From the NCBI RefSeq assembly GCF_009930795.1, contig NZ_CP017146.1, positions 2,356,001-2,420,000 on the forward strand: a DNA stretch of 64,000 nucleotides, given 5' to 3'. Below are positions 16,279-62,126 of the stretch, piece after piece. The notes below the pieces were generated by a model, which was given only the letters and a program-made list of their open reading frames with translations, did not search any database and had not been told where the DNA came from. Both the position numbers and the translations under genes were made by a program. This DNA is from Marisediminicola antarctica. Its GTDB lineage: Bacteria; Actinomycetota; Actinomycetes; Actinomycetales; Microbacteriaceae. Position 1 is the first letter of the stretch. Each line of letters begins with the position of its first letter.

Positions 16279-16287
16279 GCGATTCCG

Positions 16288-23335: not shown

Positions 23336-23338
23336 ACA

Positions 23339-38500: not shown

Positions 38501-38604
38501 ATGTCCAGATAGACCGGTAGCCCTGCGTGTTCGGCGGCAAAGAAGTTTTCGGTTAAGGCGTCGTCGATCGCTTGGTAGCTAGCCCATGACCCAAGAAGCT
38601 TCAT
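35563..38604 (-). CDS. druH: Druantia type III DruH-like protein
   Basis: A 1013-residue protein of unknown fold, starting [20 protein letters not shown]. No enzymatic motif is obvious; a CSQCG half-site near residue 670 may bind zinc with other residues. In Druantia type III the system consists of the helicase DruE and one large partner, DruH, in this order; size and one-base overlap with the helicase gene support that reading. Homology to DruH could not be tested, so the name rests largely on context. The start at 38604 has only a weak purine stretch upstream. The promoter should lie within 38605-39168. Confidence 0.6.
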
Positions 38605-39455: not shown

Positions 39456-39483
39456 CGCAGAAACTCGATGCGATCAATAACTT

Positions 39484-39843: not shown

Positions 39844-40010
39844 AAGGACACCCGCAGCCTGAAGATGTTCACGACGAGTTGGCCGCAGCCATCGAATCTG
39901 GTGCGATTCCGACGAACGAATCGGCGCTTGATGAGACGCCCGGCATTGAATCCTAGGCTTCGACCGGACCCAATTCACTGGAATAGAGGATTGGGTCCCT
40001 GCATCTGGCG

Positions 40011-40667: not shown

Positions 40668-40747
40668 GATTTTCTCCAAAGAATGAGGCTGATACTGGGA
40701 CAAGCGGGCGGCCCGGGTGGGGCACCCTGTCTGAACGGAGTGGGTGA

Positions 40748-41218: not shown

Positions 41219-41223
41219 GTGGG

Positions 41224-42249: not shown

Positions 42250-42348
42250 GATTGTCTCCTGCTGTTTAGTGGGTGAAGGGGCATCGGCGCCACGGTGTGC
42301 GTGCGCTTCGCCAAAGCTAAACGCGCCGTGACTAGTAAACCGTGAAGT

Positions 42349-42372
42349 CGTTGATAAGCCGGGTTATCAGCG
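42349..42372. promoter_or_regulatory. Inverted repeat in the divergent TM2/hsd control region
   Basis: CGTTGATAA-GCCGGG-TTATCAGCG: 9-bp arms with one mismatch. It is midway between the divergent starts at 42249 and 42454, a good place for an operator; the HTH domain of the protein encoded from 42454 is one candidate to bind it. Confidence 0.4.
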
Positions 42373-42453
42373 ATTCTTTGCAGCAGTATCAACAATTGCC
42401 GTAGTCTCACTTTTGGCGCACAACCGGTCCGGGCGGTGTCAGAGAGGAGCGCG

Positions 42454-47355: not shown

Positions 47356-50300
47356 TGGCCGGAATGTCTGAGGCGCAGTGGGAGCAGCTCACCCTCGACA
47401 CGCTCGGTGAGCTGGGCTGGCGCACGACGACGGGCGAGCAGATCGCGCCCGGTTCCGGTCAGCGTGACTCGTGGGCTGATCCGCTCATTCGTCCGCGTCT
47501 GCTGGAGGCGATGCGTCGGCTGAACCCGGCGGTGCCCGCGCAGTACCTAAAGCAGGCGCTCACCGAGATCGCCAGCCCGGCATCCGCCGACGCGATAAGT
47601 GAGAACCGGCGCATTCACGACATCCTCGTCGACGGCTATCGACTGGGCTATGTCGACGCCGATGGGCAGGAGGTCAACGCCACCATTCGCGTGCTGAGCA
47701 CGCAGCCGGAGGAGAACGACTGGCTCGCCGTCAACCAGGTCACCGTACGCGACCGAGAGCACACCCGCCGCTTCGACCTCGTGCTTTACGTCAATGGCAT
47801 GCCTCTGAGCGTCATCGAGCTCAAAAAGGCGGGCTCCGAGCGGACCAGTGCTGCTGCGGCGCACGCACAGCTGGCAACGTACCTGCGCGAGTTCCCGACG
47901 GCGTTCCGATTCTGCACATTCACCCTCGCGAGCGACGGCACCGAGGACACCCTCTACGGCACGCCGTTCACGCCGCTGAACCACTTCGCGCCGTGGAACG
48001 TCGACGACGATGGTGTTCCCGTGGTGCGGGGCCGCGTCGAAGGCGGCGACGTCGTCACCGCACTGGAAGATGCCCTGTACGGGCTCTACAACCAGGAGCG
48101 CCTGCTGCAACTTGTGCGCAGCTTCACCGCGTTCGACGACGACGCCGGCGGATTCGTTAAGCGGATCGCGAAGCCGCACCAGTACTTCGCCGTGACCAAG
48201 GCGGTCGGCAGCACCGTGCAGGCCGTCGCATCCAACGGCAAGGCCGGTGTGGTCTGGCACACCCAGGGCTCCGGCAAGTCGATGGAGATGGAGCTCTACG
48301 CCAACCTCATCTCCCGGCACCCAAAGCTGCGCAATCCCACGATCGTGGTCATCACCGACCGCACCGAGCTCGACGGCCAGCTGTTCCAAGGATTCGACCG
48401 CAGCTTGCTGCTGCCGGAGAAGCCGAAGCAGGTGCGCCGGCGCAGCGAGCTCCGCGATGAGCTCAGCAACCGCGCCACGGGTGGCATCTACTTCAGCACG
48501 CTTCAGAAGTTTGGCCTCACCGACGCGGAGAAGGCATCGGGAACGGCGCATCCGCTTCTCTCCGACCGGCGCAACATCGTGGTGATCGTCGATGAGGCGC
48601 ATCGCAGTCATTACGACGACCTGGACGGGTACGCCCGGCACCTGCGCGACGCGCTGCCCCACGCGACGCTGATCGCGTTCACCGGCACGCCCGTGTCGTT
48701 CGACGAACGGAACACGCGCGAGGTGTTCGGCGAATACATCGATATCTACGACCTCACTAGGGCTGTGGATGACGGCGCGACCGTGCCCGTGTTCTTCGAG
48801 CCCCGGCTCATCAAGGTGGCGCTCGCGGGGGATCTCACCGTGGACGATATCGATGCGGCCGCAGACGAGGCCACGCTCGGACTCGACGAGACCGAACGCA
48901 CCCGGCTCGAGGCATCCGTCGCGGTTGTCAATGCGGTCTACGGAGCGCCCGAGCGCCTCGACGCCCTCGCCACCGACATCGTGACCCACTGGAACGACCG
49001 GCGGGATCTGATGCGCCCGTTCCTCGAGGTGCCCGGAAAGGCCATGATCGTCGGGGCCACCCGCGAGATCTGCGCGCGCCTCTACGACGCGATCATCACG
49101 CTCGAGCCGAGCTGGCACTTGGACGAGCTGAGCGGCGGACGCATCAAGGTGGTCTACTCGGGAACCCCGTCGGATGTGTCGCCGGTCGTGGAGCACGTGC
49201 GCCGGCCGTCGGACAACGAGGTCATCAAGAGCCGCCTGCGCGATCCCGACGACGAACTCGAACTCGTGATCGTCAAAGACATGATGCTCACCGGGTTCGA
49301 TGCCCCGCCCCTGCACACCCTCTACCTCGACCGACCGCTCAAAGGTGCCCTGTTGATGCAGACTCTTGCGCGGGTCAACCGCACCTTCCGTGGCAAGGCC
49401 GACGGGCTGCTCGTCGCGTACGCGCCGCTTGTCGACAACCTCGCCAAGGCCCTCGCCGAGTACACGGTGCGCGACCAGGCCGAGAAGCCGGTCGGGCGGG
49501 ACACCGGCGAAGCGGTTGACGTGACCAAGGAGCTCGTCGCCCGGATCCGCGTACTCCTTGAGGGCTACGACTGGAAGACCGTGCTGAACGCCGGGGGAGC
49601 AAAGGCCTACCTCAACGCCGCGACCGGTGCCACCAACTACCTTCGTGCGGTGGGACCGGCCAACGCGCCGGAACTCGGCGCAGAGACGCTCGCTGCGCAA
49701 TACCGCAAGTTCTCGAGCCAACTCGCGCGGGCGTGGGCGCTGGCCTCCGGCGGCAAGAACCTTCCCGAGCTGCGTCCCGAAATCGCGTTCTTCGAGGAGG
49801 TGCGAGTGTGGATGGCAAAGTTCGACGCGCGCGACCGCCAGGCGCGTGGCGAGCCGATCCCGGACGAGGTGCAACGCCTGCTCGTCGCGCTCATCGACTC
49901 GGCGACGGATGCGCAGGACGTGGTCGACATCTACGCGGCGGCCGGGATGTCGCGTCCGTCGCTCGCGGACCTGACGCCCGGTTTCGTTCAGACGACCCAG
50001 GACGCGCCCAACCCTCAACTGGCGGTTGAAGCTTTGCGGGCGATGCTGCTCGAGGAGTCGGCGACGGCGGCGCGGAACAACGTCGTGCGGCAGCGAGCCT
50101 TCTCCGATCGCATCGGTGAGCTAATGACCAAGTACACGAACCAGCAGTTGACCTCCGCCGAGGTGATAGCGCAGCTCGTCGAGCTCGCCAAGGAGATCGC
50201 TGCCGAGGCATCCCGGGGGTCGTCGTTCACCCCACCGTTGAACACCGACGAGCTCGCGTTCTACGACGCGGTCACTCAGAACGAGTCGGCCGTCAAGGTG

Positions 50301-50537
50301 CAGGGGGAGAGCATCCTCGCTCAGATCGCCCGGGATCTCGTCGATGTTATGCGGCGCGATGTGCGGACCGACTGGACCGTGCGCGACGACGTGAGGGCCA
50401 AGCTGCGGGCCTCGATCAAGCGCCTGCTCGTGAAGAACGGCTATCCGCCGGACAAGCAGCCCGACGCCATCCGGCTCGTGATGGAGCAGATGGAGACGAT
50501 GGCGCCGCGGTATGCGGATGATCGGAGCGCCGCCTAG
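47355..50537 (+). CDS. hsdR: Type I restriction endonuclease subunit HsdR
   Basis: A 1060-residue motor/nuclease subunit. The N-terminal nuclease core has the Glu-x-Lys pair in SVIELKKAG (near residue 155). The helicase motor has Walker A HTQGSGKSMEM (near 305), DEAH box IVDEAHRS (near 413) and motif VI-like QTLARVNRTF. The C-terminal helical domain docks onto the methylase; parts of it are duplicated as remnants at 6626-6880 and 16081-16278. ATG 47355 overlaps the hsdS stop (TGATG). The operon looks complete and intact. The gene overlaps the convergent lipoprotein gene by 4 bp. Confidence 0.95.
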   Translation: MAGMSEAQWEQLTLDTLGELGWRTTTGEQIAPGSGQRDSWADPLIRPRLLEAMRRLNPAVPAQYLKQALTEIASPASADAISENRRIHDILVDGYRLGYVDADGQEVNATIRVLSTQPEENDWLAVNQVTVRDREHTRRFDLVLYVNGMPLSVIELKKAGSERTSAAAAHAQLATYLREFPTAFRFCTFTLASDGTEDTLYGTPFTPLNHFAPWNVDDDGVPVVRGRVEGGDVVTALEDALYGLYNQERLLQLVRSFTAFDDDAGGFVKRIAKPHQYFAVTKAVGSTVQAVASNGKAGVVWHTQGSGKSMEMELYANLISRHPKLRNPTIVVITDRTELDGQLFQGFDRSLLLPEKPKQVRRRSELRDELSNRATGGIYFSTLQKFGLTDAEKASGTAHPLLSDRRNIVVIVDEAHRSHYDDLDGYARHLRDALPHATLIAFTGTPVSFDERNTREVFGEYIDIYDLTRAVDDGATVPVFFEPRLIKVALAGDLTVDDIDAAADEATLGLDETERTRLEASVAVVNAVYGAPERLDALATDIVTHWNDRRDLMRPFLEVPGKAMIVGATREICARLYDAIITLEPSWHLDELSGGRIKVVYSGTPSDVSPVVEHVRRPSDNEVIKSRLRDPDDELELVIVKDMMLTGFDAPPLHTLYLDRPLKGALLMQTLARVNRTFRGKADGLLVAYAPLVDNLAKALAEYTVRDQAEKPVGRDTGEAVDVTKELVARIRVLLEGYDWKTVLNAGGAKAYLNAATGATNYLRAVGPANAPELGAETLAAQYRKFSSQLARAWALASGGKNLPELRPEIAFFEEVRVWMAKFDARDRQARGEPIPDEVQRLLVALIDSATDAQDVVDIYAAAGMSRPSLADLTPGFVQTTQDAPNPQLAVEALRAMLLEESATAARNNVVRQRAFSDRIGELMTKYTNQQLTSAEVIAQLVELAKEIAAEASRGSSFTPPLNTDELAFYDAVTQNESAVKVQGESILAQIARDLVDVMRRDVRTDWTVRDDVRAKLRASIKRLLVKNGYPPDKQPDAIRLVMEQMETMAPRYADDRSAA

Positions 50538-50962
50538 AAGGCGGACAACCAGATCTCCATAGTGCTCGACCATTCCGGGCAGTAAGCGCCAGGGGCCATT
50601 GCGAACACCGCAAGCTCGTAGTCCTGAGCGAATCCCTGGACCATGTTCGCGGCATGGATCTCATCGAGCGTCGCGCCGGAATCAAGATCCTCGCATGCTC
50701 GCCTTCCCAAGCCGATCAAAACGTGATCCGAGACCCGTTCCGTGTCTGGGTTGAACGCGCGAACGAAGGCCAAAAGCATATTGTCTGCTTCCTCCGGCGT
50801 CAGCGTCACCTCTGATTCCGTTTGCGTCGGCGTCGGCTCTGAATCCGCTGGCGTCAGCGTGAGTGATAGTTCTGCGTTCGGTAGTCCCATGCACCCTGAC
50901 ATCGAGGTTATGAAGAGCGCCGCGAGCAGCAGAGCGCCCATAGGCCGAGGGAATTTGTGCAT
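50534..50962 (-). CDS. Small lipoprotein, DUF732-like
   Basis: A 142-residue exported lipoprotein: MHKFPRPMGALLLAALFITS then the lipobox MSGC. After a Thr/Pro/Glu-rich linker the C-terminal part has the pattern GRRACEDLDSG ... AVFAMAPGAYCPEW, resembling actinobacterial DUF732 domains with two conserved cysteines that probably form a disulfide. The gene converges on hsdR and overlaps its last 4 bp. Function unknown; a cell-surface location is expected. Confidence 0.75.
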   Translation of the reverse strand: MHKFPRPMGALLLAALFITSMSGCMGLPNAELSLTLTPADSEPTPTQTESEVTLTPEEADNMLLAFVRAFNPDTERVSDHVLIGLGRRACEDLDSGATLDEIHAANMVQGFAQDYELAVFAMAPGAYCPEWSSTMEIWLSAF

Positions 50963-51065
50963 GCGTCACATATATCACGGGTGTGCTGTCCGTCGCTGGC
51001 GCACATTCGGGTAGATCGTTTCGAGCCCATCTGACATTTCTTGAAACTGGGCGTCAGCTGTACGT

Positions 51066-51310
51066 ATGTTGGGAAAACGGATCGTCTCATTCTTGCCTAG
51101 CCGCGGATTATCCGACGCGCTCTCTCACGTGGCCCTCCAACACTCCTGGCAGCAAATCGAAGAGATGGAGCGGGATGCGCTGGCGCTATGGCTGCACACG
51201 GGCGACAGGATCGACGATTCTTACGAGACACTTACCGCACCACCCTCGCCGCGATCAAGGCGCGGCTGCAAGGCGAGCTGACTATCGTGCGGATGGGAGC
51301 GTTGCTATGA
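51066..51310 (+). pseudogene. Possible frameshifted small gene
   Basis: From the ATG at 51066 the frame gives MLGKRIVSFLPSRGLSDALS, then WQQIEEMERDALALWLHTGD and RIDDSYE, after which coding character moves to another frame (DTYRTTLAAIKARLQGELTI then VRMGALL, stop 51308-51310). The join would lie near 51225-51235. It reads as one roughly 80-residue helical protein broken by a small indel. Family not recognised. Confidence 0.4.
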
Positions 51311-51619
51311 AGGGCGTCGCGCGGAGGCCAGCTACTCGTTCGGTGAAGTGATCTTGATATTGCCGCTAGTGCGGGCGTCGACGAGGCAGTCGGCGAGACG
51401 CAACGCGTCAGTTTCGGTTGACCGGGCACGAGCCGCAAGTCACAGGCGGAGGACGGCATGTCCATGCTCAGGGCCACAGCCTCCACGCTCGGCTCGTCCT
51501 GACATTCACCCAGCGAATCGACACGTTTGGATCGCTTGCAGTGCACACAGCGACAAATGCGCAGCTGCCGCGCATGACCTCTTTCGAGATCGCCTCTCTG
51601 CGGTCCGGAAGGGTGCGAC
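51311..51619. other. Region without a supported gene
   Basis: About 310 bp of overlapping open frames with no clear start or coding bias. It is probably decayed sequence. Confidence 0.35.
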
Positions 51620-52195
51620 ATGTTCGAGGAGGCTCCTGCAGCCGATCTATGCGCGCGAGCATTCGCACTCTGGCGGACTGAGGGCGCAGCGGACGGGTCA
51701 CTCGCGTATTGGGGGGCAGATCAGGCCCTATCAGGCGGACTAAATGCACCCGGCCCCGTCCCGTGGAAGCGCGCGACGAACTGGGCTGAAGCGCTCCGTC
51801 GGCATGAGGACTTCTGGCGCACTCACGGACGAAGCCCGCGGGAGAACACGCGGAACCGCAGCGCCCTTCCGTCGTCCGAGCGGCACGCCGGGGAGTGGGC
51901 CCGGCGCCAGCGCCGTTACGAGAGCAATCTAACCCGGTATCAGGTGATCCGTCTCGACATCTCTCCGTCGTTCCGCTGGGATCCGCACGAGGAGGCGTGG
52001 CAGTCGCGACTCGACGAGTGCATCCAGCACCGTATCGCCACCGGGCGAATCCCGTACCTCAACATCGCGGATGCCGCTGAGTTCGCTTTGGCCCGCTGGC
52101 TTGGCCGGCAGATGCGCCTGCTGCAGTACGGCGCTCAACCGGCCGCCCGGGCAGAGAGGCTGAGGGCGTTTTTGTCCGATTCGCCGACCCCGTGA
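51620..52195 (+). CDS. Helicase-associated (HA)-domain protein
   Basis: A 191-residue protein. From about residue 50 it contains two degenerate helicase-associated repeats: W-A-x2-L-x2-HEDFWRTHGRSPREN ... EWARRQRRYESN, then WQSRLDECIQHRIATGRIPY ... ALARWLGRQMRLLQYG. These small three-helix modules occur in tandem in actinobacterial proteins and may bind nucleic acid. The N-terminal 45 residues look unrelated. Start ATG 51620; no strong ribosome site. Two related proteins lie at 55790 and 57658, so this region has accumulated the family. Confidence 0.6.
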   Translation: MFEEAPAADLCARAFALWRTEGAADGSLAYWGADQALSGGLNAPGPVPWKRATNWAEALRRHEDFWRTHGRSPRENTRNRSALPSSERHAGEWARRQRRYESNLTRYQVIRLDISPSFRWDPHEEAWQSRLDECIQHRIATGRIPYLNIADAAEFALARWLGRQMRLLQYGAQPAARAERLRAFLSDSPTP

Positions 52196-52268
52196 CATTG
52201 GCCGTCGGATCGGATGGCAATCGGAGGGGACGGCGCTAGCGTGGGCGGCGACAGACACGGAGTGAGTC

Positions 52269-52688
52269 ATGGGTGGACGGCGGGACGGTGATGCCGGTGA
52301 TGAGCCCGCCCGCAGGGATGACAAGCTCTGGGAGGAGCTGGTCGGTCCTTTCTACGACATCACCTCGATCTGCCGGTCGCTCGATGTCTCGCCGGAGGTC
52401 GCACGTCGGATGGTCGAGCGAGGCGAGCTCCTCGGACTGCCCCTTCGGGGCGGCGAGTTCATCTTTCCGTCGCGCCAGTTCGGTGTGCGCGTGGAGCTAC
52501 CGCCGGGCTTGCCCGAGGTGCTTACCGCGATGCGCGCCAGCTTGGATCCGTGGGGAAGCGCCCTCTGGCTGTTTCAACCGTCACCGATCGAGTTCGACGG
52601 GCTTACGGCCGTGGAGATGATGCGTGCCGGACGGTTGGAATCCGTGCTCGCCATCGCGCAGGAACTCGGCAGGTTCTGGGACAGCTGA
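52269..52688 (+). CDS. Antitoxin-like protein of the Xre/MbcA/ParS type, orphan
   Basis: A 139-residue protein. An N-terminal helix-turn-helix-like segment (YDITSICRSLDVSPEVARRM) is followed by a C-terminal part GSALWLFQPSPIEFDGLTAV then EMMRAGRLESVLAIAQE, which resembles the toxin-binding domain of Xre/MbcA/ParS antitoxins. No RES-domain or other toxin gene is adjacent, so it may be an orphan antitoxin or a regulator. The ATG at 52269 has GGAG upstream. A GC-rich hairpin follows the gene. Confidence 0.5.
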   Translation: MGGRRDGDAGDEPARRDDKLWEELVGPFYDITSICRSLDVSPEVARRMVERGELLGLPLRGGEFIFPSRQFGVRVELPPGLPEVLTAMRASLDPWGSALWLFQPSPIEFDGLTAVEMMRAGRLESVLAIAQELGRFWDS

Positions 52689-52701
52689 GAGCGCGCCAAA
52701 T

Positions 52702-52730
52702 GGGGGCGGGCGCGACCTGTGCCCGCCCCC
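52702..52730. terminator. Hairpin between convergent genes
   Basis: A perfect 10-bp stem GGGGGCGGGC / GCCCGCCCCC with a 9-base loop, placed between convergent stops at 52688 and 52744. It has no T-run, so its strength as a terminator is uncertain. Confidence 0.6.
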
Positions 52731-52743
52731 TGAGTTACGTCGG

Positions 52744-53955
52744 TTAGTGGGGAGCGGGCTGCTCGCTGCGGGCGGCAGCGGCGGCGATGGTGCGCAGGTT
52801 GGCGTCGGTCAGCACGATGGTGAGGGCCAGTTGCGCGGCGGCCAAGCCCTCGATGGTGGAAAGGGCCCCGGTCGCGTGCGTGAAATCGGTGCTCCGGTGG
52901 ATGCGGGCGTTCAGGCGCTCTAGGGAGTACCCGGCGTGACCGCGCAGTGCTTCCCATTCCGGACTGTCGTAGGGGAGGACCCGCTGGGCATGCATGCTGC
53001 CCTTCGCCTCCAACGCTGAACCCACATCGGCGTCCGGGGCGGCCGGGAAGTATCGCTTGTCCGCGTGCACGACGCCGATGGGCAACCGGGTCAGGAGCGC
53101 GGCGCCCATGACGTTCTGCGCGGCGTCAGCCGACGCGGCGCTCGGAGGATTCACGGTGGCCCCGATTGCAAGTTGGAGCTTGCGGGGCGCGCCGTGCTTC
53201 TCTGAATTCATGACCAGTGCAATGCACGCGGACCATCCCCACTTCGGGCTCGAGCTCCTGCGCACCCTCGAGCGGCCGCGACGGCTCGGTGACGCGAGAA
53301 GCTTTTCACCGATGGCGAGAGAGATTGTGCCTTCGCGAAGGTTCTGAGGCTGCTCGCGGAAGGTCATCTGGAGGAAGGCGTTGGTGAATGTGTCGAGGCG
53401 CGCCTTCATGATCATTTCCCGTTCGGGGTCATGGGCGTCCAGCGCGGCCTGCGTCTCCGTGAAGGTGAAGGTGCGGCCGCGTTTCTGCGGGAAGGGATCC
53501 ATGAGATCGAGCAACCGGTGATAGGCGTCGCCTATCCGGCTGTACCAGCATGCCGTCTCGAGGTCGGTGTTCGACTCCGGCGTCGGGAGGCACAGCAGTT
53601 CGCGGGACTCGGGCGCCAAGCGGTGTTGGATCAGGTCTGCCAGCGTCGTAATCGTGTGCGGGGAGCGTTCGCCCGCGAGCAGCACCAAGCCAACGAGGAT
53701 GACACGGTCGGAGACCGTGCTGCGCTCATGGCCGACACGCTGGTGCGGGGTGCGCCAGCTGGCGAGGAGGTCGAGCGCCCCTGTCTGTGTGACGCGGTCG
53801 TTGGCCTGAGCGACCAGGTACGGGTTGATGATCCTGCCGTTGTCGGCGAGGGTCGCGGTGGAGGTGGGAATGTGGATGAGTCGGTTGTTTGTCATGCAGA
53901 GATATGTGTGCGGCGCATTTTCGCGATTCGATGCATTTCGGTCGAGAATCGTCAT
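52744..53955 (-). CDS. Shortened DDE transposase-like protein
   Basis: A 403-residue relative of the 617-residue protein at 59965-61818. Shared features: an N-terminal helical part with RIGDAYHRLLDLMDPFPQKR (compare RIGDAVKRLIALVDEFPGRR), a VVHADKRYFP segment (compare HYIVDRAYPG) and a C-terminal LRGHAGYSLERLNARIHRST (compare YGLRNGVESANRNVKRAQFE). The first presumed catalytic Asp is not visible (ISLAIG in place of IAQDAT) and about 200 residues between the second Asp and the Glu are missing. The frame is intact, so it may be a divergent short subfamily, an inactivated copy or a domesticated protein. The ATG at 53955 has GAGGAGAG upstream. Confidence 0.65.
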   Translation of the reverse strand: MTILDRNASNRENAPHTYLCMTNNRLIHIPTSTATLADNGRIINPYLVAQANDRVTQTGALDLLASWRTPHQRVGHERSTVSDRVILVGLVLLAGERSPHTITTLADLIQHRLAPESRELLCLPTPESNTDLETACWYSRIGDAYHRLLDLMDPFPQKRGRTFTFTETQAALDAHDPEREMIMKARLDTFTNAFLQMTFREQPQNLREGTISLAIGEKLLASPSRRGRSRVRRSSSPKWGWSACIALVMNSEKHGAPRKLQLAIGATVNPPSAASADAAQNVMGAALLTRLPIGVVHADKRYFPAAPDADVGSALEAKGSMHAQRVLPYDSPEWEALRGHAGYSLERLNARIHRSTDFTHATGALSTIEGLAAAQLALTIVLTDANLRTIAAAAARSEQPAPH

Positions 53956-54222
53956 TTCGCGTCTCTCTCCTCAGGTAAAGCACTGATCAGAAGGGTACAA
54001 AAATCTTTCAAAGATTTCCGAACCTGGCAACGAACGGCTCGAGCGTCGCCGTCTGCGCCCACGCGGAGCCCTTGTTCACGGTAACTCGGAGGTCGCTGGC
54101 CATACCGCCGACTCATCGACATTCCCGTCGGCCGGCTGCGGCGGAGTGGGCAAACTCGAGTAGACCTGCACTTGTCGAGACACTCGACAGGGACCACGAG
54201 GGGGACGACGGTGGGACGTGTG

Positions 54223-54453
54223 ATGATCACCGTGCATGTATGTACGTGTCGCGAGATGCCCACGCGGCCGGTCCCACCTGAGAAGGTGAGGGTGGCCGCG
54301 GCGCGAGTTCGGGTGGAGTCGGACCGACAGGTGAACCGCTCGACTCCGCAGTGGATTCTCGATCTGGCGGACCTCGGGAGCGTCGAGCCTTCCGAGCGTC
54401 GGAAGGAACGTTTCGGTCGCCTGAGTTGGTTTCGACGACTTCGACGTCGATGA
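54223..54453 (+). CDS. Small basic hypothetical protein
   Basis: A 76-residue open frame starting MITVHVCTCREMPTRPVPPE and continuing with KVRVAAARVRVESDRQVNRS, TPQWILDLADL and an Arg-rich end. Coding character is reasonable and GTGGGA lies about 10 bases before the ATG at 54223, but no family is recognised. It ends 42 bp before the metallophosphoesterase gene on the same strand. Confidence 0.4.
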   Translation: MITVHVCTCREMPTRPVPPEKVRVAAARVRVESDRQVNRSTPQWILDLADLGSVEPSERRKERFGRLSWFRRLRRR

Positions 54454-54495
54454 GCTCGGGACAAGCCCGGCATCAACACAGGAAGCGAGGATCCG

Positions 54496-55305
54496 ATGGA
54501 ATCACTGTCGACAGCCGAGCGAATCGGCATTCTCGGAGACGTGCACGGCGATCTCGACCATGTGCTGCGGGTGTCGGGCGCGATGTCGACGCGCGACATC
54601 CGGACACTTCTGGTTCTGGGCGACTTTGGATTTATCTGGCCGGGCGCCAACTGGGACAACGTCGTCGCCAAGCTGAGCAAGAGGCTCCTCGCCCGAGGCC
54701 AGTCCTTGTTTTTCGTCGACGGGAACCACGAGGACTTCAGTCGCCTCTACCGTTTCCCCATCGGGCCAGACGGATTGCGGTGGATACGCCCGAACATCGC
54801 GCACATACCGCGCGGATACCGAACCCGCCTAGCCTCTGGGAGGACTCTGGCCGCACTTGGCGGTGCGAGCTCCGTCGACGTTGAATACCGCCGGGAAGGG
54901 TACTCGTGGTGGCCGCAGGAGTCGATCACCGAGGCCGACCTCGACGCCGTCGGCGACGAACCCGCCGAGCTCCTCGTCGGGCACGACGCACCCCTGAACC
55001 TTCCCGGCCTCGATCGTCGGCTGGCCCAAACCGCCGACCAGTGGCCGTCGGCGGGGCGCGAATACGCAGCCGCCGGACGTCGCATGTTCCACCGCGGATT
55101 TCTGCAGCTGCGCCCCGCACTGTACCTCGGCGGCCATTATCACCACCACATCGACGAGACGGTCGTGATCGGCGTCGGTGACGACCGCTTCGAGTCGCGC
55201 GTGGTCCTCCTCGACAAGAACGGTGACCCGACAACCATCAGCCAAGGCATCCTGAACGTGACGACGTTCAACCTCGACCTGTTCTGCCTGGCGAATCGCA
55301 CATAA
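54496..55305 (+). CDS. Calcineurin-like metallophosphoesterase
   Basis: A 269-residue phosphoesterase with the full metal-site set: GDVHGD (residues 14-19), GDFG near 45, GNHE near 77, GHDAP and GHYHHHID. Such enzymes hydrolyse phosphomonoesters or phosphodiesters with a di-metal centre; the substrate is not predictable. No signal peptide. The ATG at 54496 has GCGAGGA upstream. It may be co-transcribed with the small gene before it. The C-terminal 40 residues follow the last metal motif without a recognisable extra domain. Confidence 0.85.
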   Translation: MESLSTAERIGILGDVHGDLDHVLRVSGAMSTRDIRTLLVLGDFGFIWPGANWDNVVAKLSKRLLARGQSLFFVDGNHEDFSRLYRFPIGPDGLRWIRPNIAHIPRGYRTRLASGRTLAALGGASSVDVEYRREGYSWWPQESITEADLDAVGDEPAELLVGHDAPLNLPGLDRRLAQTADQWPSAGREYAAAGRRMFHRGFLQLRPALYLGGHYHHHIDETVVIGVGDDRFESRVVLLDKNGDPTTISQGILNVTTFNLDLFCLANRT

Positions 55306-55353
55306 ACCAACCCCGCGCCGATGCGGGCTCCAGTGTGGGCTAGTCACACCACG

Positions 55354-55557
55354 TCACCGGTGGCGTCGGGGACGCTTCGCGGGGTTCCACGGGAACGGCC
55401 ACGTCGACGGGTCCTGATCGGTCACGTCGACGCCGTCATCCCAGACGCGGGTCCACGGCGGCTCGATGCCGCGTTCCCGGTATGCCCGCTCGAATGCATC
55501 TCCGCGGAACTTGGGGTATCCGGTTCCGTTCGGCGGCAGGTCGTGTTCGCGGGCCAT
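55354..55557 (-). CDS. Small conserved protein, copy 1 of a duplicated gene
   Basis: A 67-residue protein starting MAREHDLPPNGTGYPKFRGD, with ERAYRERGIEPPWTRVWDDG and WPFPWNPAKRPRRHR. A near-identical gene is at 57219-57425; the frame is intact in both with mostly conservative changes, which supports a real gene. The ATG at 55557 has GAGGAG about 4 bases upstream. It diverges from the HA-domain gene at 55790. Function unknown. Confidence 0.65.
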   Translation of the reverse strand: MAREHDLPPNGTGYPKFRGDAFERAYRERGIEPPWTRVWDDGVDVTDQDPSTWPFPWNPAKRPRRHR

Positions 55558-56167
55558 GGTGCTCCTCAGGCTCGAGCAGCCGGCCCTGCGACGACGATAT
55601 TACGCCGCACGTAGGACCTTGCTCCAGCGCCAGTTCGTAGGGGCGCCGCCAGAATGCAGGGCACGACCGCGTCATCGCCACCCACTGCTTTATCCGGGCC
55701 CCGGACTGATGGCTCGAGACTCGTTAACGGCAACGTGCCGCGCATGACTTTCCGGGCGGCTGCGACCTCCGCCCGGAAGGGCACGTGCCGTGGCGATGGA
55801 GGACGGGTCGAGCCGGAAATCGTTCGACCAGCTGGAACGGCGTTGGATGGCCAATTATGAGGAGCTCCGGTCATTCCGGGCAACGAAGGGGAAGTTGCCC
55901 CTCGAGGCGGGCGTGGGCTCGGAGGCGACTCTGGGTGGATGGTTGCGTAACCAACGACGACGGCACAAGCGCGGACGGATGCCGGCGTGGCAGGCAGACT
56001 TGCTGCAGCGGATCCCCGGCTTCGTCTGGGAGCCGGCGGTAGGGGCCTGGTGGGTCAAGCTCGAGCTGCTGCGTGCGTTTCTTGAGCGGGAGGGGCGGGT
56101 GCCGCGTTACCGGGCGGTCCATGCGGGGGAGCGGGAGCTGGCAGCGTGGGTGCACAAGCAGCGCCAT
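55360..56167. repeat. 808-bp direct repeat, copy 1
   Basis: Matches 57228-58035 at a constant offset of 1868 bp with no indel seen, and diverges abruptly at 56168/58036. It contains the small minus-strand gene, the divergent promoter region and the N-terminal 126 codons of the HA-domain protein. Confidence 0.85.
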
Positions 56168-56755
56168 TTCCTCTGCGTCGTGGCGTTTCTGCCCGCAGTC
56201 ATGGGCTGGCATGTCCTCATTCCAGCACTGGGCGGCGCGCTCCTATTGGTCGCCAATCTGGTGCATCGCCCATGGAGACAGATATTCGTCCCACACACGT
56301 CACCGTTCGTCGTCGCCAGCATCGTGATGGTCTCGGTCGGGGTGGCTGCGTTCCAGCTCCTCACGAGTGCCCCTCGCCAGTCGAGCGGATCGCTCGAATG
56401 GAGCGTTCTACCCGGGCAAGAATACGGACCACTCGCCGTCATTGCGATCGTAATCGTTGCTTCGATCACCAACGCAACGTTCGAGGAGCTGTTGTGGCGC
56501 GTTGGGCTACAGAGGCTCTTTGCGGGCCGTGGGTGGCTCATCGCCCAGTGGCTCCTGTTGTCAGTTATCTTCGGCCTCTCTCATGTGAACGGAACGCCTG
56601 GCGGTATCCTCGGGATGGCGTTTGCCGGCTTGTTCGGCTTCGTCATGTGCATCATCCGAGAGGTGTCTCGAGGCTCCGTCATCTGGATAATCGTGGTTCA
56701 CTTCGTCGCGGATGTAATTCTGATCGGAGGCGTTTATGGCATCTTCATTTGGTGA
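55790..56755 (+). CDS. HA-domain / CPBP intramembrane protease fusion
   Basis: A 321-residue chimera. Residues 1-126 are two helicase-associated-type repeats nearly identical to the protein at 57658. At the exact repeat boundary (56168) the sequence switches to a membrane protein with several helices carrying the CPBP (CAAX protease/Abi) motifs: FEELLWR near residue 233, FGLSHVNG near 263 and HFVAD near 304. CPBP proteases cleave substrates in the membrane and include bacteriocin-immunity and abortive-infection proteins. The fusion is in frame. Start is the GTG at 55790 or ATG 55796. The next gene overlaps its end by 20 bp. Confidence 0.75.
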   Translation: MAMEDGSSRKSFDQLERRWMANYEELRSFRATKGKLPLEAGVGSEATLGGWLRNQRRRHKRGRMPAWQADLLQRIPGFVWEPAVGAWWVKLELLRAFLEREGRVPRYRAVHAGERELAAWVHKQRHFLCVVAFLPAVMGWHVLIPALGGALLLVANLVHRPWRQIFVPHTSPFVVASIVMVSVGVAAFQLLTSAPRQSSGSLEWSVLPGQEYGPLAVIAIVIVASITNATFEELLWRVGLQRLFAGRGWLIAQWLLLSVIFGLSHVNGTPGGILGMAFAGLFGFVMCIIREVSRGSVIWIIVVHFVADVILIGGVYGIFIW

Positions 56756-57170
56756 ACAGTTCGCAGCAATCGTTCGCACTACGAGTCGTTCTGCACACGC
56801 CTATTTGTGCGACGGTAACTCAGCCGCGGCCGTGGCTTGGGACGACAACTCCGAAATTACGATTCGACTGTCCCTTCGTGGTGAAGAGATTTGGCTTCTC
56901 GCCGGTTCGGGGACTCTTCTACGTTTTGTGGCTGCGAGTGACGGCGAGTTCGACCACGAGGGCATCGGCTATGTCATCAATCAGATTTTGCATGGAGCCG
57001 CTATTGAGTTCTTTGGTGTGGCCGAAGACACTGACAACGTCAACTTTGCTACGGGCTTTGAGATCGGTCAGTCGCAAGAGTTCGCGGGTGGATTGAACGG
57101 GAGCCAAGCCCGCTTCAGGACGCGTCTGGCCGGACCGATGGCTAGTGCCGCCCTGACCATACTTGAGTAG
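56736..57170 (+). CDS. Hypothetical protein coupled to the CPBP fusion
   Basis: A 144-residue soluble protein starting MASSFGEQFAAIVRTTSRSA. It overlaps the end of the protease gene by 20 bp, which implies coupling and a joint function. No motif is recognised; a strand-rich central part (ITIRLSLRGEEIWLLAGSGT) and FATGFEIGQSQEFAGG are visible. It lies wholly in the 1.06-kb segment that separates the two 808-bp repeats, so it moved together with the protease module. A partner, substrate or immunity protein is possible. Confidence 0.65.
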   Translation: MASSFGEQFAAIVRTTSRSAHAYLCDGNSAAAVAWDDNSEITIRLSLRGEEIWLLAGSGTLLRFVAASDGEFDHEGIGYVINQILHGAAIEFFGVAEDTDNVNFATGFEIGQSQEFAGGLNGSQARFRTRLAGPMASAALTILE

Positions 57171-57218
57171 CCCGCTTTGACGACGTAGACAGAAAGCCCA
57201 GGGTCGATATAGGTGATC

Positions 57219-57425
57219 TTACGTCCGGTGGCGCCGGGGCCGTTTCGCGGGGTTCCACGGAAACGGCCACGTCGACGGGTCCTGGCCGGTCACGTCGGCG
57301 CCGTCATCCCATACCCGAGTCCACGGCGGCTCGATGCCGCGTTCCCGGTATGCCCGCTCCAATGCATCTCCGCGGAACTTGGGGTATCCGGTTCCGTTCG
57401 GCGGCAGGTCGTGTTCGTGGGCCAT
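57219..57425 (-). CDS. Small conserved protein, copy 2 of a duplicated gene
   Basis: A 68-residue protein, nearly identical to that at 55354-55557 (MAHEHDLPPNGTGYPKFRGD; ends PAKRPRRHRT). The few differences are single substitutions (R3H, F22L, V43A, D47G) that keep the frame. The ATG at 57425 has the same GAGGAG upstream. Function unknown. Confidence 0.65.
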   Translation of the reverse strand: MAHEHDLPPNGTGYPKFRGDALERAYRERGIEPPWTRVWDDGADVTGQDPSTWPFPWNPAKRPRRHRT

Positions 57426-58035
57426 GGTGCTCCTCAGGCTCGAGCAGCCGGCCCTGCGACGACGATATTACGCCGCACGTACGACCTTGCTCCAGCGCCA
57501 GTTCGTAGGGGCGCCGCCAGAATGCCGGGCACGACCGCGTCATCGCCACCCAGTGCTCTATCCGGGTCCCGGACTGGTCGCTCGAGGCTCCGTAACAGCA
57601 ACGTGCCGCGCATGACTTTCTGGGCGGCCGTGACCTCCGCCCGGAAGGGCACGTGCCGTGGCGATGGAGGACGGGCCAAGCCGAGAGCCGGCCGACAGGC
57701 TGGAACAGCGTTGGCTTGCCACTTATGGGCAAATCAGGTCATTCCGGGCGACGAAGGGAAAGTTGCCTCTCGAGGCGGGCGTGGGTTCGGAGGCGACTCT
57801 GGGTGGATGGTTGCGTAACCAACGACGACGGCACAAGCGCGGACGGATGCCGGCGTGGCAGGCAGATTTGCTGCAGCGGATCCCCGGGTTCGTCTGGGAG
57901 CCGGCGGTAGGGGCATGGTGGGTCAAGCTCGAGCTGCTGCGTGCGTTTCTTGAGCGGGAGGGGCGGGTGCCGCGTTACCGGTCGGTCGATGCGGGGGAGC
58001 GGGAGCTGGCAGCGTGGGTGCACAAGCAGCGCCAT
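57228..58035. repeat. 808-bp direct repeat, copy 2
   Basis: Second copy of 55360-56167, offset 1868 bp. Here the HA-domain gene continues past the repeat boundary into its own short C-terminus, so this copy may be the ancestral one. Confidence 0.85.
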
Positions 58036-58107
58036 CACTTTCGACAGGGCCGGCTTCGGCCCGATCGCGCCGCTGCGCTGCGCCGCCTGCCGTTCAAGAT
58101 TGTGTAG
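57658..58107 (+). CDS. HA-domain protein, stand-alone copy
   Basis: A 149-residue protein with two helicase-associated-type repeats: RWLATYGQIRSFRATKGKLP ... LGGWLRNQRRRHKRGRMP and WVKLELLRAFLEREGRVPRY ... ELAAWVHKQRH. The last 23 residues (HFRQGRLRPDRAAALRRLPF) complete a third helix and differ from the fusion copy at 55790. Start is the GTG at 57658 (or ATG 57664), with GGAAGGG upstream. It converges on the HTH regulator at 58240. Confidence 0.65.
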   Translation: MAMEDGPSREPADRLEQRWLATYGQIRSFRATKGKLPLEAGVGSEATLGGWLRNQRRRHKRGRMPAWQADLLQRIPGFVWEPAVGAWWVKLELLRAFLEREGRVPRYRSVDAGERELAAWVHKQRHHFRQGRLRPDRAAALRRLPFKIV

Positions 58108-58239
58108 GCGCGCGGGCCAGAGGCGGATTGTCGTCCAAAACGGGAACACGTACCGCGGAAGATGTTCGATTCTGGGTTGATGCGGCCGACAACTCTGGAG
58201 CTTCGACGAGCGGCAGGTCCCGCTTGCCGCCGTTCGCCG

Positions 58240-58656
58240 TCAAGCACCCCCCTCCTGGGGAGCCGGCGAGCGCCAGCTGTCAGTCGTCTCGGGGTCGGTG
58301 AGCTGTCTGAGGGTGGCGCCGATGAAGGGAGCGAGGTCGGGGATCTGGCGTGCCCAGAAGAGCATGTCGGTGATGGTGATCATCGTCTCGCCCCTCAGGA
58401 GTCGCTGGAAGCGGTCCTCGGAGAGGCCGGGTGGCAACTCGTTTGTCGCACAGAACGTCCTGATGTTGGTGTTGTGGTCGAGGAGGTGTTCCCGGATCCT
58501 GTTGGCGACGGCATGTTGCAGCTCCGCCGCCGCTTGGTGCGGTGTCTCCATCGGACCGGTGGCGAGTTGGGTGCTGGTGCGGCCGAACTTCTTCGGGTTG
58601 TCGGCGAGCGAGCGGGGCTCGAACACGACGCCGCCGGGCTGAGGCTTACGAGGCAT
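58240..58656 (-). CDS. XRE-like helix-turn-helix regulator of the recombinase pair
   Basis: A 138-residue protein. The central part (ANRIREHLLDHNTNIRTFCA then SEDRFQRLLRGETMITITDM) reads as an XRE-type helix-turn-helix in which LLRGETMITI forms the recognition region; the flanks are disordered-looking. It diverges from the tyrosine recombinase gene across 133 bp that contain a repeated TTTGCACCA motif, so autoregulation and control of the recombinase are likely. The ATG at 58656 has no clear Shine-Dalgarno and may be leaderless. Confidence 0.65.
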   Translation of the reverse strand: MPRKPQPGGVVFEPRSLADNPKKFGRTSTQLATGPMETPHQAAAELQHAVANRIREHLLDHNTNIRTFCATNELPPGLSEDRFQRLLRGETMITITDMLFWARQIPDLAPFIGATLRQLTDPETTDSWRSPAPQEGGA

Positions 58657-58673
58657 GGCCTAATTTTACCCAA

Positions 58674-58749
58674 TTTGCACCAGTCTGATAGCAATCGCTG
58701 GGTTTTGGTGGTGATATGCGTCGTTTCGCAGTCTGTTTGCACCACAGTC
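58674..58749. promoter_or_regulatory. Paired TTTGCACCA operators between regulator and recombinase
   Basis: TTTGCACCAGTC at 58674-58685 and TTTGCACCACAGTC at 58736-58749, direct repeats 62 bp apart (about six helical turns). They flank the divergent promoter region and are good candidate binding sites for the HTH protein. Confidence 0.5.
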
Positions 58750-58789
58750 ACGCTGAACCGGTTGGCGATCGCCGCACACACACCTCTGC

Positions 58790-59968
58790 ATGACTACCCC
58801 TACAGAACTCTCCGGCCTTCCTGCGACCAGATCGACCCCCTCCGCCATCAAGCGACCGCGGAAGAGCACCGCCGCCAGGATCGCCAACACACACGTCGAC
58901 TCGGGCGTCGACTATGACAGCGACGCACGCCTGCTCGTGTTCCGCGAGGGCGCCGAGGACCCGCGGGTGGCGGCGGCCCGCATGATGCTCCACGGTGCGG
59001 CGAGTGAGGATGCCCGGGTAGCTATGGAGGCCATCCGAGCCGAGCTGCCGCCGGCCACCGCGAAGAAGATGAGCGACTACAAGTCCTCGCTCCCCGCCGC
59101 GGCTGTCGAGGCCATCCGCCCATTCGTCGAGAACGCGGTGGCGCTTGCACTCCCAAAGACCACCCACTCAGTCGAAACGCTCCTCGGCCCCTGTATGCAC
59201 TTCGTCTACTGGGCCGTATACGTCATCGGTGCCGACCTCGACGCCGACATCATCTTCAAGCGGGAGCTGATCGAGAACTACGTGCGCGGGGCGGCGAAGG
59301 ACCGCTCGGAGGGCACCCGCCGCAACCATCGCGCGTGGCTGTTCCGCGTCGCCGAGGCCGCGAACCCTGAGGCCAACCCCCGCAACCCGATGCCGCTGAA
59401 CGCCCGGGCGGTCGAGACTCCCTACGACGCCGACGGCTTTGTCGCACTCGGCCGGTGGGCTGCCGGTCAGAAGACCCCCCACATGCGAACCGCCGCCAAA
59501 ACTCTTCTGGCACTCGGGGCGGGAGCCGGCCTCCGCGCCTCCGAGATCGCGGTACTCAGGCGCGAGGCGATCACCGTCGACGAGAAAGGTCGGGTGACGA
59601 TCGAGATCACCGAGGGCGGTCCGCATCGCGTTGTTCCGGTGACGGCCCAGTTCGAGAAGTCGCTCGCGAAGGCTGCGAAGGTCATGCCGCCCGGCTCTTT
59701 CGCCTTTCTCCCGAACCGGGTCCGGACCGGACATGAGGTCGTGAGTGCCTTCGTCGGCCGATCATCCATGCCGCCGGGCAGCCCGGTCGTGCGGGCGAGC
59801 AAACTGCGCAATACCTGGCTGGTCCGGCAGATGACCAACCGTGTCGATGTGCTCACCCTGATGGATGCGGCGGGTCTGCAGTCGCTCGAGTCGATCTCCC
59901 GGCTGGCGAGCTACGTGCCCCGCCCGTCCGAGAAGGACCGCCTGGCCCAGCTGCGAGGCACGCGATGA
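58790..59968 (+). CDS. Tyrosine recombinase of a two-enzyme mobile element
   Basis: A 392-residue protein with the catalytic layout of tyrosine recombinases: Arg249 in GAGAGLRASEIAVL, Arg340 in ASKLRNTWL, and the nucleophile candidate Tyr375 in LASYVP. The usual His of HxxR is Ser337 and the second His/Trp is not evident, so this is a divergent branch. An N-terminal SAM-like core-binding region precedes it. The ATG at 58790 is taken as start, without a clear ribosome site. Its TGA overlaps the start of the DDE-type gene by 4 bp (ATGA), so both enzymes are made together. It may integrate, excise or resolve the element. Confidence 0.78.
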   Translation: MTTPTELSGLPATRSTPSAIKRPRKSTAARIANTHVDSGVDYDSDARLLVFREGAEDPRVAAARMMLHGAASEDARVAMEAIRAELPPATAKKMSDYKSSLPAAAVEAIRPFVENAVALALPKTTHSVETLLGPCMHFVYWAVYVIGADLDADIIFKRELIENYVRGAAKDRSEGTRRNHRAWLFRVAEAANPEANPRNPMPLNARAVETPYDADGFVALGRWAAGQKTPHMRTAAKTLLALGAGAGLRASEIAVLRREAITVDEKGRVTIEITEGGPHRVVPVTAQFEKSLAKAAKVMPPGSFAFLPNRVRTGHEVVSAFVGRSSMPPGSPVVRASKLRNTWLVRQMTNRVDVLTLMDAAGLQSLESISRLASYVPRPSEKDRLAQLRGTR

Positions 59969-61818
59969 GCCGCCCCACCATTGAATCGCAGTATGAGCAG
60001 GCCGAGAGGTGGATGCATCATACTTTCGGCTCCGGTATGCGCGACTACACCTCGGCAAACCTGAGCACGCCAAACAGCGTCGCCATCGTCGAGGTGGACC
60101 GGCTCGTCAAAGCATCGGCAATTCGCCAGCTCATTGTTGGGTGGCGCGCTGAAGATGTGAAGTCGGCCGCAGGGGCGAAGCCCTTCGTTGATGAAACCGC
60201 GGCACTGGCGCTGATATTGCTGCAGCTCCGACTCGAGCGTCCCACGCTGATCAGCGACATGGCGAAGACGTTCCACAGACTGAGTCCGCGACAGCGGGCG
60301 GTCATCGGGTTACGGCACGACGGTGAGGACACACGCGTCTACGGCCGAATCGGGGATGCAGTGAAGCGTCTCATCGCGCTTGTCGACGAATTCCCGGGTC
60401 GCCGCGACAAAATCCTTAGTCGTGACGAGTTCCGGGCGATGATCGCAGGGCGAGACCCAGCGGACTGCCGAAAGCGGCGCGAGCGGATGTTCCTCCTCGG
60501 CAACACCCTCGTCGAGGGCACCTGGAAGATGCTCCCCCGAGAGGTGCGCGAGCGATGGGAAGGCAACATCGCCCAGGACGCCACACTCGTCCCACTCCAA
60601 GGGCAGCGGGGCAACCCAGCCGGCCACAACCTGAACGAGCGACGCCGATCGATCAACTCTGACGGCGGGTACTACCAGCGCGCCGGAAGCCACGGAGCCA
60701 TGACCCATTCCGACGCCCGCGAAGCCAACAAAGCCAGCCCCGGCGCCAAGAACAAAGGAACGTCCATCGGCAAGAGCACTTGGGGAGTCGAAGCGGAACT
60801 CGCGCGACTGGTTCCCAACCTTCACGACGACCCGGATCTCTTCCCCCTCATCACACTCGGCGTGAGCTACCACATCCCCGGCGCGATCACGGGAGAGGGA
60901 GTGCGCATGCTGAACTCCTTCGTTGACCGAGGGCACCGCCCCAACCACTACATCGTCGACCGCGCATACCCCGGGGGCAAGTTCCAGGAATTCCACCTAC
61001 CCGCCCGACTCCTCGGTGTGAAGCTCGTGTTCGACTACAAGGACAAAGCACTCGGCGTTCAACTGCACCACACCAGCGGATTCGTGCAGGTTTCCGGCGC
61101 CTGGTACCTCGACAACCTCCCCGACGTGCACCGCGACGCCGACAAAGTGGTGCTCGTCGCACGGAACAAGTTCGATGCCGAAATTAACCGGATCGAGAAG
61201 ACCAACCCCACCGACGCTGAACGCGCGGAAGGGAAAGGAAAGGCGGGCAAGGAACTGGCGCCGGCAGAGGAGCTTTACGAGAAACAGTTGGCGCAGCGCG
61301 CAAAGTACATGCTGACCTACAAGGGCCACATCCAGCCAGACGGGTCTCGCCGCTACATCATCCCTACCGATGCACCGGGGTACCCCAAGTGGAAAGCACA
61401 GAAAGGCTCCCACCAGAGCCAGAGCATCGTGATGACCCTGCCTACTGCGAAGGAAATCGAAGATGATGTGAACGCTGGCGGACTCAAGAACGAACAGTAC
61501 TTCGCCTACGGAACGGCACCGTGGAAGCACGCCTACGGCCTTCGCAACGGTGTCGAATCGGCCAACCGAAATGTCAAGCGCGCACAATTTGAAGACATCG
61601 CGACGCCCGACAAACGCGGCGTCCGCGGCAACACCTTCACCTACATCGTCGTCGCGATGAGCATTGTCGCCGAGAATCTTCGACAGATGGTTTCCTTCTT
61701 CAAACGCAAACTTGCGCTGAAAACCATTCACTCAAAGAACAACTACATTCCCTCGCTCTTCTGGCAGAGCGACAACTCGGTGCCCGCACCCGAGCCCGAA
61801 CCCCGGCCACCCTGGTAG
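59965..61818 (+). CDS. DDE transposase-like protein of a two-enzyme mobile element
   Basis: A 617-residue protein whose C-terminal two thirds look like an RNase H-fold transposase: Asp205 in NIAQDATLVP, Asp332 in HYIVDRAYPG, and Glu531 in YGLRNGVESANRNVKR, the last typical of IS4/IS1182-type enzymes. A helical domain (residues 60-200) precedes it, and a charged insertion (about 400-480) separates the second Asp from the Glu. The C-terminus ends in a Pro/Glu tail. It is translationally coupled to the tyrosine recombinase. A degenerate homologue (15337-15495) and a shortened one (52744-53955) show that the family has been mobile here. No flanking terminal inverted repeats were found by eye. Confidence 0.72.
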   Translation: MSRPTIESQYEQAERWMHHTFGSGMRDYTSANLSTPNSVAIVEVDRLVKASAIRQLIVGWRAEDVKSAAGAKPFVDETAALALILLQLRLERPTLISDMAKTFHRLSPRQRAVIGLRHDGEDTRVYGRIGDAVKRLIALVDEFPGRRDKILSRDEFRAMIAGRDPADCRKRRERMFLLGNTLVEGTWKMLPREVRERWEGNIAQDATLVPLQGQRGNPAGHNLNERRRSINSDGGYYQRAGSHGAMTHSDAREANKASPGAKNKGTSIGKSTWGVEAELARLVPNLHDDPDLFPLITLGVSYHIPGAITGEGVRMLNSFVDRGHRPNHYIVDRAYPGGKFQEFHLPARLLGVKLVFDYKDKALGVQLHHTSGFVQVSGAWYLDNLPDVHRDADKVVLVARNKFDAEINRIEKTNPTDAERAEGKGKAGKELAPAEELYEKQLAQRAKYMLTYKGHIQPDGSRRYIIPTDAPGYPKWKAQKGSHQSQSIVMTLPTAKEIEDDVNAGGLKNEQYFAYGTAPWKHAYGLRNGVESANRNVKRAQFEDIATPDKRGVRGNTFTYIVVAMSIVAENLRQMVSFFKRKLALKTIHSKNNYIPSLFWQSDNSVPAPEPEPRPPW

Positions 61819-61865
61819 CCGGAACCACTGCGCGATAACCCCCGCTTACCCGCAACACCGATACG

Positions 61866-61904
61866 AATCGGCGTGCCTGAAAATCCTCAGGCACGCCGAT
61901 TTTG
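61866..61904 (+). terminator. Rho-independent terminator after the mobile-element genes
   Basis: A perfect 15-bp stem, AATCGGCGTGCCTGA / TCAGGCACGCCGATT, with a 6-base loop and a short T-run. It lies 48 bp after the DDE-type gene. Confidence 0.9.
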
Positions 61905-61961
61905 CGTTTAACGCCCGCATCGGGCATCCGCCGACGGTGCCCTGAGCACGAATCCGGGCAC

Positions 61962-61999
61962 AAAAAAGGCCGGGAGACCGCTAAGCGATACTCCCGACC
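61962..61999 (-). terminator. Terminator of tRNA-Leu
   Basis: On the minus strand GGTCGGGAG pairs with CTCCCGGCC (one mismatch) and is followed by TTTTTT (61962-61967). It is 44 bp downstream of the tRNA 3' end. Confidence 0.85.
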
Positions 62000-62042
62000 A
62001 ATTTCCCGAACAATCCAGCTGAATAGGCCGAATCTCTCAGTG

Positions 62043-62126
62043 TGCGCGAAGGGGGACTTGAACCCCCACGCCCTTTCGGGCACTAGCACCTCAAGCTAGC
62101 GCGTCTACCAATTCCGCCATCCGCGC
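62043..62126 (-). tRNA. tRNA-Leu(GAG)
   Basis: An 84-base tRNA with acceptor stem GCGCGGA / UUCGCGC, discriminator A, anticodon loop UUGAGGU (anticodon GAG) on a CUAGC stem, a long variable arm (UGCCCGAAAGGGCGU) as in class II tRNAs, and the T-arm with GUUCAAGUC. CCA is not encoded. It reads codons CUC and CUU. Its 3' end faces the mobile element at 58.2-61.8 kb, the usual place for element insertion. Confidence 0.95.

Follow-up and report, generated by a model that had tools for sequence, protein, structure and literature searches.

The window analysed here, a stretch of 64,000 nucleotides from Marisediminicola antarctica (NZ_CP017146.1, positions 2,356,001 to 2,420,000), carries at 58240-61818 the core genes of a family of mobile elements. 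The core consists of a helix-turn-helix (HTH)-like regulator gene, a gene for a tyrosine recombinase (YR)-like protein and a gene for a DDE transposase (Table 1). The family is widespread in actinobacteria, inserts beside tRNA genes and often carries anti-virus defence genes. It is explained here as a cargo-carrying DDE transposon with a dead YR as its target selector, a reading given a probability of about three in four; the transposase probably does the cutting and the disabled recombinase probably picks the site. Direct support comes from the conserved pairing of the two genes, the element ends, the target duplication, the preference for tRNA genes, near-identical copies at different sites, the dead YR active site and the intact DDE triad.

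The original prediction, made from the letters of the window alone, had proposed a new mobile element in which a recombinase gene runs into a DDE gene. The predicted open reading frames (ORFs) are present, and in the window the stop codon of the YR-like gene and the start codon of the DDE gene share the sequence ATGA; a stop/start overlap is usual among family pairs. A genome search also bears out the pairing, with a YR gene directly 5' of the DDE gene in 24/25 full-length DDE copies in a first set and 24/25 in a second (one record is common to both sets, and the YR is partial or split in a few copies). The pairing holds at DDE identities down to ~20%, and the pair recurs across Actinomycetota at 20-30% identity; therefore, the arrangement in the window is not due to chance. 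Relatives of the DDE protein were found in 7/297 order-level genomes and 31/395 class-level genomes and also elsewhere in the phylum. A first scan of the genome contigs, with the window protein as sole query, gave no match. Streptomyces plasmid copies have the gene order of the window, HTH(-)/YR(+)/DDE(+), with the YR and DDE genes annotated as hypothetical. The divergent HTH gene often accompanies the pair and would encode a repressor. The window protein has no Pfam match of its own; its Streptomyces counterpart is HTH_3.

The core region varies among copies. Two tandem YR-like genes lie 5' of the DDE gene in some members (L020 2730-5518, L022 7579-9790, L066 8327-10237), and one of the pair in L066 looks broken. 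Four Streptomyces plasmid copies have a gene for a hypothetical protein of ~180-200 aa 5' of the HTH gene (L014 3802-4335, L159 6895-7428, L160 6744-7346, L161 6892-7434), which may be a further core component. Strong DNA conservation is also seen just 5' of the YR start in diverged copies; this stretch, GCCGCACACAYAYCTCTGCATGAC, occurs in the window at 58766-58793 and, on the minus strand, at 53885-53915, and is a candidate operator or leader.

The active site of the YR partner is gone from all 51 sequences, whereas the fold is retained. Residues R1, HxxR His, R2, H/W and Tyr were mapped from a XerA/XerC-like alignment and scored in 51 YR domains. The usual active-site histidines, which the original prediction had reported missing from the window copy, are absent throughout (HxxR His 0/51, H/W 0/51), and R1 is present in 7/51. 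R2 (50/51) and a nearby Trp (51/51) are retained. The window protein gives a sub-threshold match to Phage_integrase, and a profile of the YR alignment matches XerC/XerA-like structures with an E value of 2e-9. The AlphaFold model of the window protein has a clear YR fold, matching XerA (Z 15.8), Tn1549 integrase and Cre, as well as the non-recombining regulators YopR/MrpR and SroF. YRs usually target tRNA 3' ends, and in Tn6022 target selection by an inactivated YR, TnsF, is proven (PMC10293859); the dead YR is therefore the natural candidate for the selector and may well fill this role.

The DDE protein keeps an intact D-D-E. The proposed triad is conserved across 47 aligned DDE proteins (D205 46/47, D332 47/47, E531 46/47) with a K in 44/47, and the long spacing between D332 and E531, noted earlier as an insertion, is confirmed. 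The Y-x2-R-x3-E-x6-K (YREK) signature is present in the family. No Pfam, NCBIfam or PADLOC model matches the window protein above cut-off, and PHROGs gives only a chance-level match; P0002, L193 and L185 have no Pfam or NCBIfam match, and the curated IS4 and IS1182 profiles do not recognise them. No profile names the DDE family, which agrees with the proposal that it is new. L020 has a weak local match to IS1182 (NF033551, E 1e-9), far below cut-off. The best structural match to an AlphaFold model of L193, a Streptosporangium relative (window protein in the alignment; pTM 0.74), is Tn5 transposase, with a Z of 16.0 over 288 residues that span nearly the whole model; TnsB scores lower (Z 9.5). 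Foldseek alone gave no match to the DDE model at E 0.001, and a PDB sequence profile search with the DDE alignment returned no transposase. The broad DDE alignment holds no stretch conserved enough for use in scanning. By alignment to this modelled relative the window protein is predicted to share the Tn5-like fold, in line with the RNase H fold expected of it, and would be responsible for end binding and catalysis.

The elements of the family are 5.5-18 kb in size. Their ends mostly begin with GGG(G/C), for example GGGGTGTTCACGAG on the left and GGGCCGTTCTTGAG or CGACTGTTCTTGAG on the right. The right end lies just past the tRNA and has two direct repeats ~21 bp apart in most cases. Several left ends carry repeats of their own (GATCGCTTCCCA-like), so the two ends differ. 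Direct repeats of 5 bp flank 14 elements in the predicted register, mostly in Streptomyces and other actinobacteria and including a plasmid copy. The repeats are TTGCA, CTGGT (two loci), AGAGT, GCTGG, CTGGC, TCGGC, TCTGT (two loci), TTTGT, TGCGT (two loci), GTTGT and CGGGC; three further elements have matching repeats with a shift of 1-2 nt.

Some insertions show the length of the duplication. The L014 element interrupts a type I-E CRISPR spacer, and a 32-nt spacer is recovered when the element is taken out together with one repeat. A 9-bp duplication at this site was considered and rejected, because the other elements and a frame-restoring insertion show 5 bp; the rest is chance extension. 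The frame-restoring insertion is in Streptomyces caatingaensis, where a 478-aa frame is recovered if exactly 5 bp are left out, but not with 0 or 10 bp; its flanks lie on two different contig ends, L224 and L199, which were matched up by the repeat that they share. This species has five copies, 99.3-99.8% identical, in which the right end starts at the same base and the right flanks are of three kinds, namely tRNA-Ala (two contigs) and two other sites. Of these copies, a second one that interrupts a gene (L202 5160-6690) lies in what reads by eye as alaS, for alanyl-tRNA synthetase. In L054, L058 and L064 the right end of an older element abuts the left end of a newer one; newer insertions have pushed older ones outward. 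A 5.7-kb block shared by L062 and L063 was tried as a whole element and rejected, having no matching ends at its distal edge.

Of about 71 loci whose downstream sequence is long enough, 47 have a tRNA or tmRNA gene 122-388 bp 3' of the DDE gene and convergent with it. The chance expectation of such proximity is well under 1%, as estimated from some tens of tRNA genes per genome. At these loci the elements are found in a single orientation, at the 3' end of the genes for Leu, Ala, Ser, Met, Lys, Val and Gly tRNAs and tmRNA. At tRNA sites the duplicated 5 bp is preceded by TTCRAATCC and 10 nt, and four plasmid sites have AATCC at this spacing within 1 nt. Non-tRNA sites of the family include the CRISPR spacer and the gene of the restored frame. 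A target matrix was built from nine distinct tRNA sites, and 11 non-tRNA sites were ranked against background. The background fractions are 0.0008, 0.02, 0.016, 0.003, 0.017, 0.07, 0.06, 0.008, 0.37, 0.78 and 0.09. Most of the non-tRNA sites, not all, appear similar to a tRNA T-arm with the spacing unchanged, which suggests that the site-choosing protein reads the T-arm.

The proposed mechanism is as follows. The DDE protein, with its Tn5/IS4-like fold, would bind both element ends and transfer the strands at a stagger of 5 bp. The YR-like protein, its DNA-binding fold kept, would recognise the T-arm (TTCRAATCC) and place the insertion ~10 nt beyond it, at the base after the acceptor stem, with the DDE end always toward the tRNA. 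The 5-bp duplication would keep the tRNA whole, and repeated insertion at one tRNA would move older copies outward and form islands. In its full form this describes a minimal two-protein site-specific transposition system, unrelated to Tn7, in which the dead YR guides the Tn5-like transposase by reading the T-arm that every tRNA gene has; its lineages would have moved among the tRNA genes listed above and tmRNA by changing the YR and built many tRNA-linked defence islands in actinobacteria. This wider account is, on balance, favoured.

Several findings weigh against a DDE transposon with a dead YR selector. The inverted ends are short and asymmetric, and a generic scan for inverted ends and repeats is weak for most single elements, so that the argument depends on the left-end motif that the elements share and on the repeats. 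Two of the 11 non-tRNA sites (L199 and L223) have no T-arm likeness and others are marginal. L021 and L198 have a DDE gene without a YR, and no AAA+ regulator was found. The YR tyrosine, a Leu at this position in the window copy, is present in 30/51. Together with the retained R2, this last point would suit two active enzymes, the DDE protein inserting (perhaps by cointegrate) and the YR resolving or excising like TnpI in Tn4430. Such a pairing of a DDE transposase and a YR resolvase is known from Tn3-type elements such as Tn4430. The original prediction had leaned this way, with two strand-transfer enzymes of which one inserts and the other resolves or excises. The pair is real and its DDE half is intact; the second activity is not supported, as R1 is absent in 44/51 and both active-site histidines are missing. 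Furthermore, the junctions carry duplications of 5 bp, which fit DDE transposition and not a recombinase att core, and at the ends direct repeats were found in place of a recognisable inverted core site of the YR type. Two active enzymes are therefore very unlikely. A conventional island integrated by the YR, with the DDE-like gene as accessory or passenger, would account for the island context, the YR fold and the location at tRNA 3' ends, which are classical YR att sites. The conventional att duplication was first expected; the distal flank in G000 and in G333 has no long repeat of the tRNA 3' end, 5-bp repeats are seen in the family instead, and it is the DDE triad that is conserved and the YR active site that is lost. 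This reading is highly improbable. It is less improbable, while still unlikely, that the DDE transposase picks the tRNA site itself and that the dead YR acts in transcriptional regulation or as an accessory that binds the ends. Repressors that have a YR fold and do not recombine are known in MrpR/YopR and SroF (MrpR, PMC10516654), and the end repeats need some binder. However, a separate HTH repressor candidate is already there, and the TnsF precedent and the usual targets of YR integrases both speak for a selector.

For the copy in the window, the element probably spans 16499-62038, or 45.5 kb, beside tRNA-Leu, and its distal end would be the one at 16499. The original prediction was right about the core genes at 58240-61818; it did not recognise the tRNA target or the ends, nor the size of what is apparently a much longer element. 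The junctions read AGTGT|GGGAGGTTCGGGAAAT at 16494 and ...GATTCGGCC..|AGTGT at 62039-62043. It is also conceivable, if somewhat unlikely, that this copy is a decayed core beside tRNA-Leu, that the ends giving the 45.5-kb extent are paired by chance and that the island is a pile of unrelated insertions, all of which is compatible with the explanation for the family. The left end is among the weaker ones of the family, and its similarity to the right end (11/16) is within chance in the generic test (p about 0.35). The island totals ~67 kb by inter-species comparison, with the empty-site flank in G654, and is therefore larger than the element. Against a chance pairing are the exact 5-bp repeat in the expected register, the GGG start, the 11-mer GTTCGGGAAAT shared by the ends (one further copy is at 20708) and a right-end-like sequence with a terminator-like hairpin, read by eye, that lies directly against the left end, an arrangement also found in L054, L058 and L064.

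Table 1. Features of the proposed element, its core genes, its cargo and related remnants in the window.
Feature	Position	Strand	Remarks
Target duplication, left copy AGTGT	16494..16498		Identical to 62039-62043
Proposed left end GGGAGGTTCGGGAAATCC	16499..16525	+	Has 11-mer GTTCGGGAAAT, inverted in right end
Proposed whole element, 45,540 bp	16499..62038	+	5-bp repeat, end motif, older right end abutting
Right end GAGAGATTCGGCCTATTCAGCTGGATTGTTCGGGAAATTGG	61990..62038	-	Read inward from tRNA; two repeats ~21 bp apart
Target duplication, right copy AGTGT	62039..62043		Overlaps tRNA 3' end
Target tRNA-Leu (GAG)	62042..62126	-	Convergent with DDE gene
HTH-like regulator gene	58240..58656	-	Divergent from YR-like gene
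YR-like gene	58790..59968	+	YR fold without YR active site; proposed target selector
DDE transposase gene	59965..61818	+	617 residues; D205, D332, E531
Cargo: ApeA-type HEPN defence protein	25102..26589	+	PF18862, 2e-52
Cargo: large protein, weak STAND NTPase similarity	26677..30078	-	Below cut-off
Cargo: DruE helicase, Druantia defence system	30191..35563	-	E = 0, 1496 bits
Cargo: type I restriction-modification HsdM	44511..46136	+	
Cargo: HsdS specificity subunit	45916..47355	+	PF01420; ORF start uncertain
Cargo: HsdR restriction subunit	47355..50537	+	1e-230
Cargo: calcineurin-like phosphoesterase	54496..55305	+	Divergent from DDE relic; same pairing in L021
DDE relic	15343-15489	+	Related to window DDE
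DDE relic, internally deleted	52744..53955	-	Related DDE gene; same leader sequence

The cargo of the window element is listed in Table 1; that of other elements includes type IIG/ISP restriction enzymes and a CHAT protein. The related copies or fragments that had been suspected twice more in the 64 kb correspond to the two DDE relics. A YR gene was looked for 5' of the relic at 52744-53955 and is absent. L021, from the same genome (G000 2696838-2698496), is likewise a DDE gene alone, and its first Asp aligns to Gly. Both have the common YR leader (GCCGCACA..CATGAC) and a divergent phosphoesterase, and they are possibly derivatives that lost the selector.

The window also has several repeats. 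An 811-bp direct repeat (93%) is inside the element at 55357-56167 and 57225-58035, with a helicase-associated-domain gene in each copy. A dispersed repeat family occurs at 6629-7006, 16086-16411 and 50231-50529; it includes a 68-bp GC-rich palindrome-like stretch, 99% identical, at 6883 and 16287. A tandem repeat array with 12/18-bp spacing occupies 22772-23365 in the ORF at 21833-23335.

A literature search of open-access papers found no description of the family. Since its genes are labelled hypothetical in plasmid records, the family has likely been missed by element finders. The proposed reading would explain a class of tRNA-linked, defence-rich actinobacterial islands by DDE transposition and not by integrase recombination. 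If true, a recombinase would have become a target selector independently for a second time, TnsF being the first case, here in a system where neither TnsC nor TniQ was found; the family could also offer a compact, testable tool for directing large DNA inserts to positions beside tRNA genes.

The family works like Tn7 or Tn6022, with a selector and a transposase, a 5-bp duplication and a fixed orientation, and is not a member of either by any protein found. No TnsB-type (rve) protein, TnsC AAA+ protein or TniQ was present in the annotated plasmid copies or in the subset of window ORFs that was scanned. The nearest precedent is TnsF of Tn6022, also a DDE transposon with an inactivated, YR-derived DNA-binding selector, target site duplications, a chromosomal homing site and cargo (PMC10293859), to which the selector here would correspond. 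Tn6022 uses TnsA, TnsB, TnsC and TniQ in addition to TnsF, which has zinc fingers and a partial catalytic domain, and its target is comM, whereas in the present family nothing beyond a DDE protein of the Tn5 type and a YR fold that is nearly complete was found, and the target is tRNA genes. Tn7, through TnsD and attTn7, shares the 5-bp duplication, the orientation-specific insertion past a conserved essential gene, end repeats ~21-22 bp apart and cargo islands (PMC2918618 and general knowledge); its DDE protein is of another lineage, and the selector proposed here has a different fold and a tRNA target. IS4 (Tn5/IS50) and IS1182 resemble the family in the Tn5-like fold of the L193 model, the YREK signature and the weak IS1182 match in L020, but the two-gene core with HTH, the large cargo, the 5-bp duplication and the tRNA targeting set it apart, and the window protein has no family match. 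The tRNA islands integrated by YRs, such as actinomycete integrative and conjugative elements and P4-type islands, have the same location at tRNA 3' ends, the YR fold and island accretion; here, in contrast, the YR active site is lost, a 5-bp repeat takes the place of an att core and a DDE transposase is present. MrpR/YopR and SroF, the regulators of SPbeta-type phages, also keep the YR fold for DNA binding, but they are phage repressors and not transposon partners.

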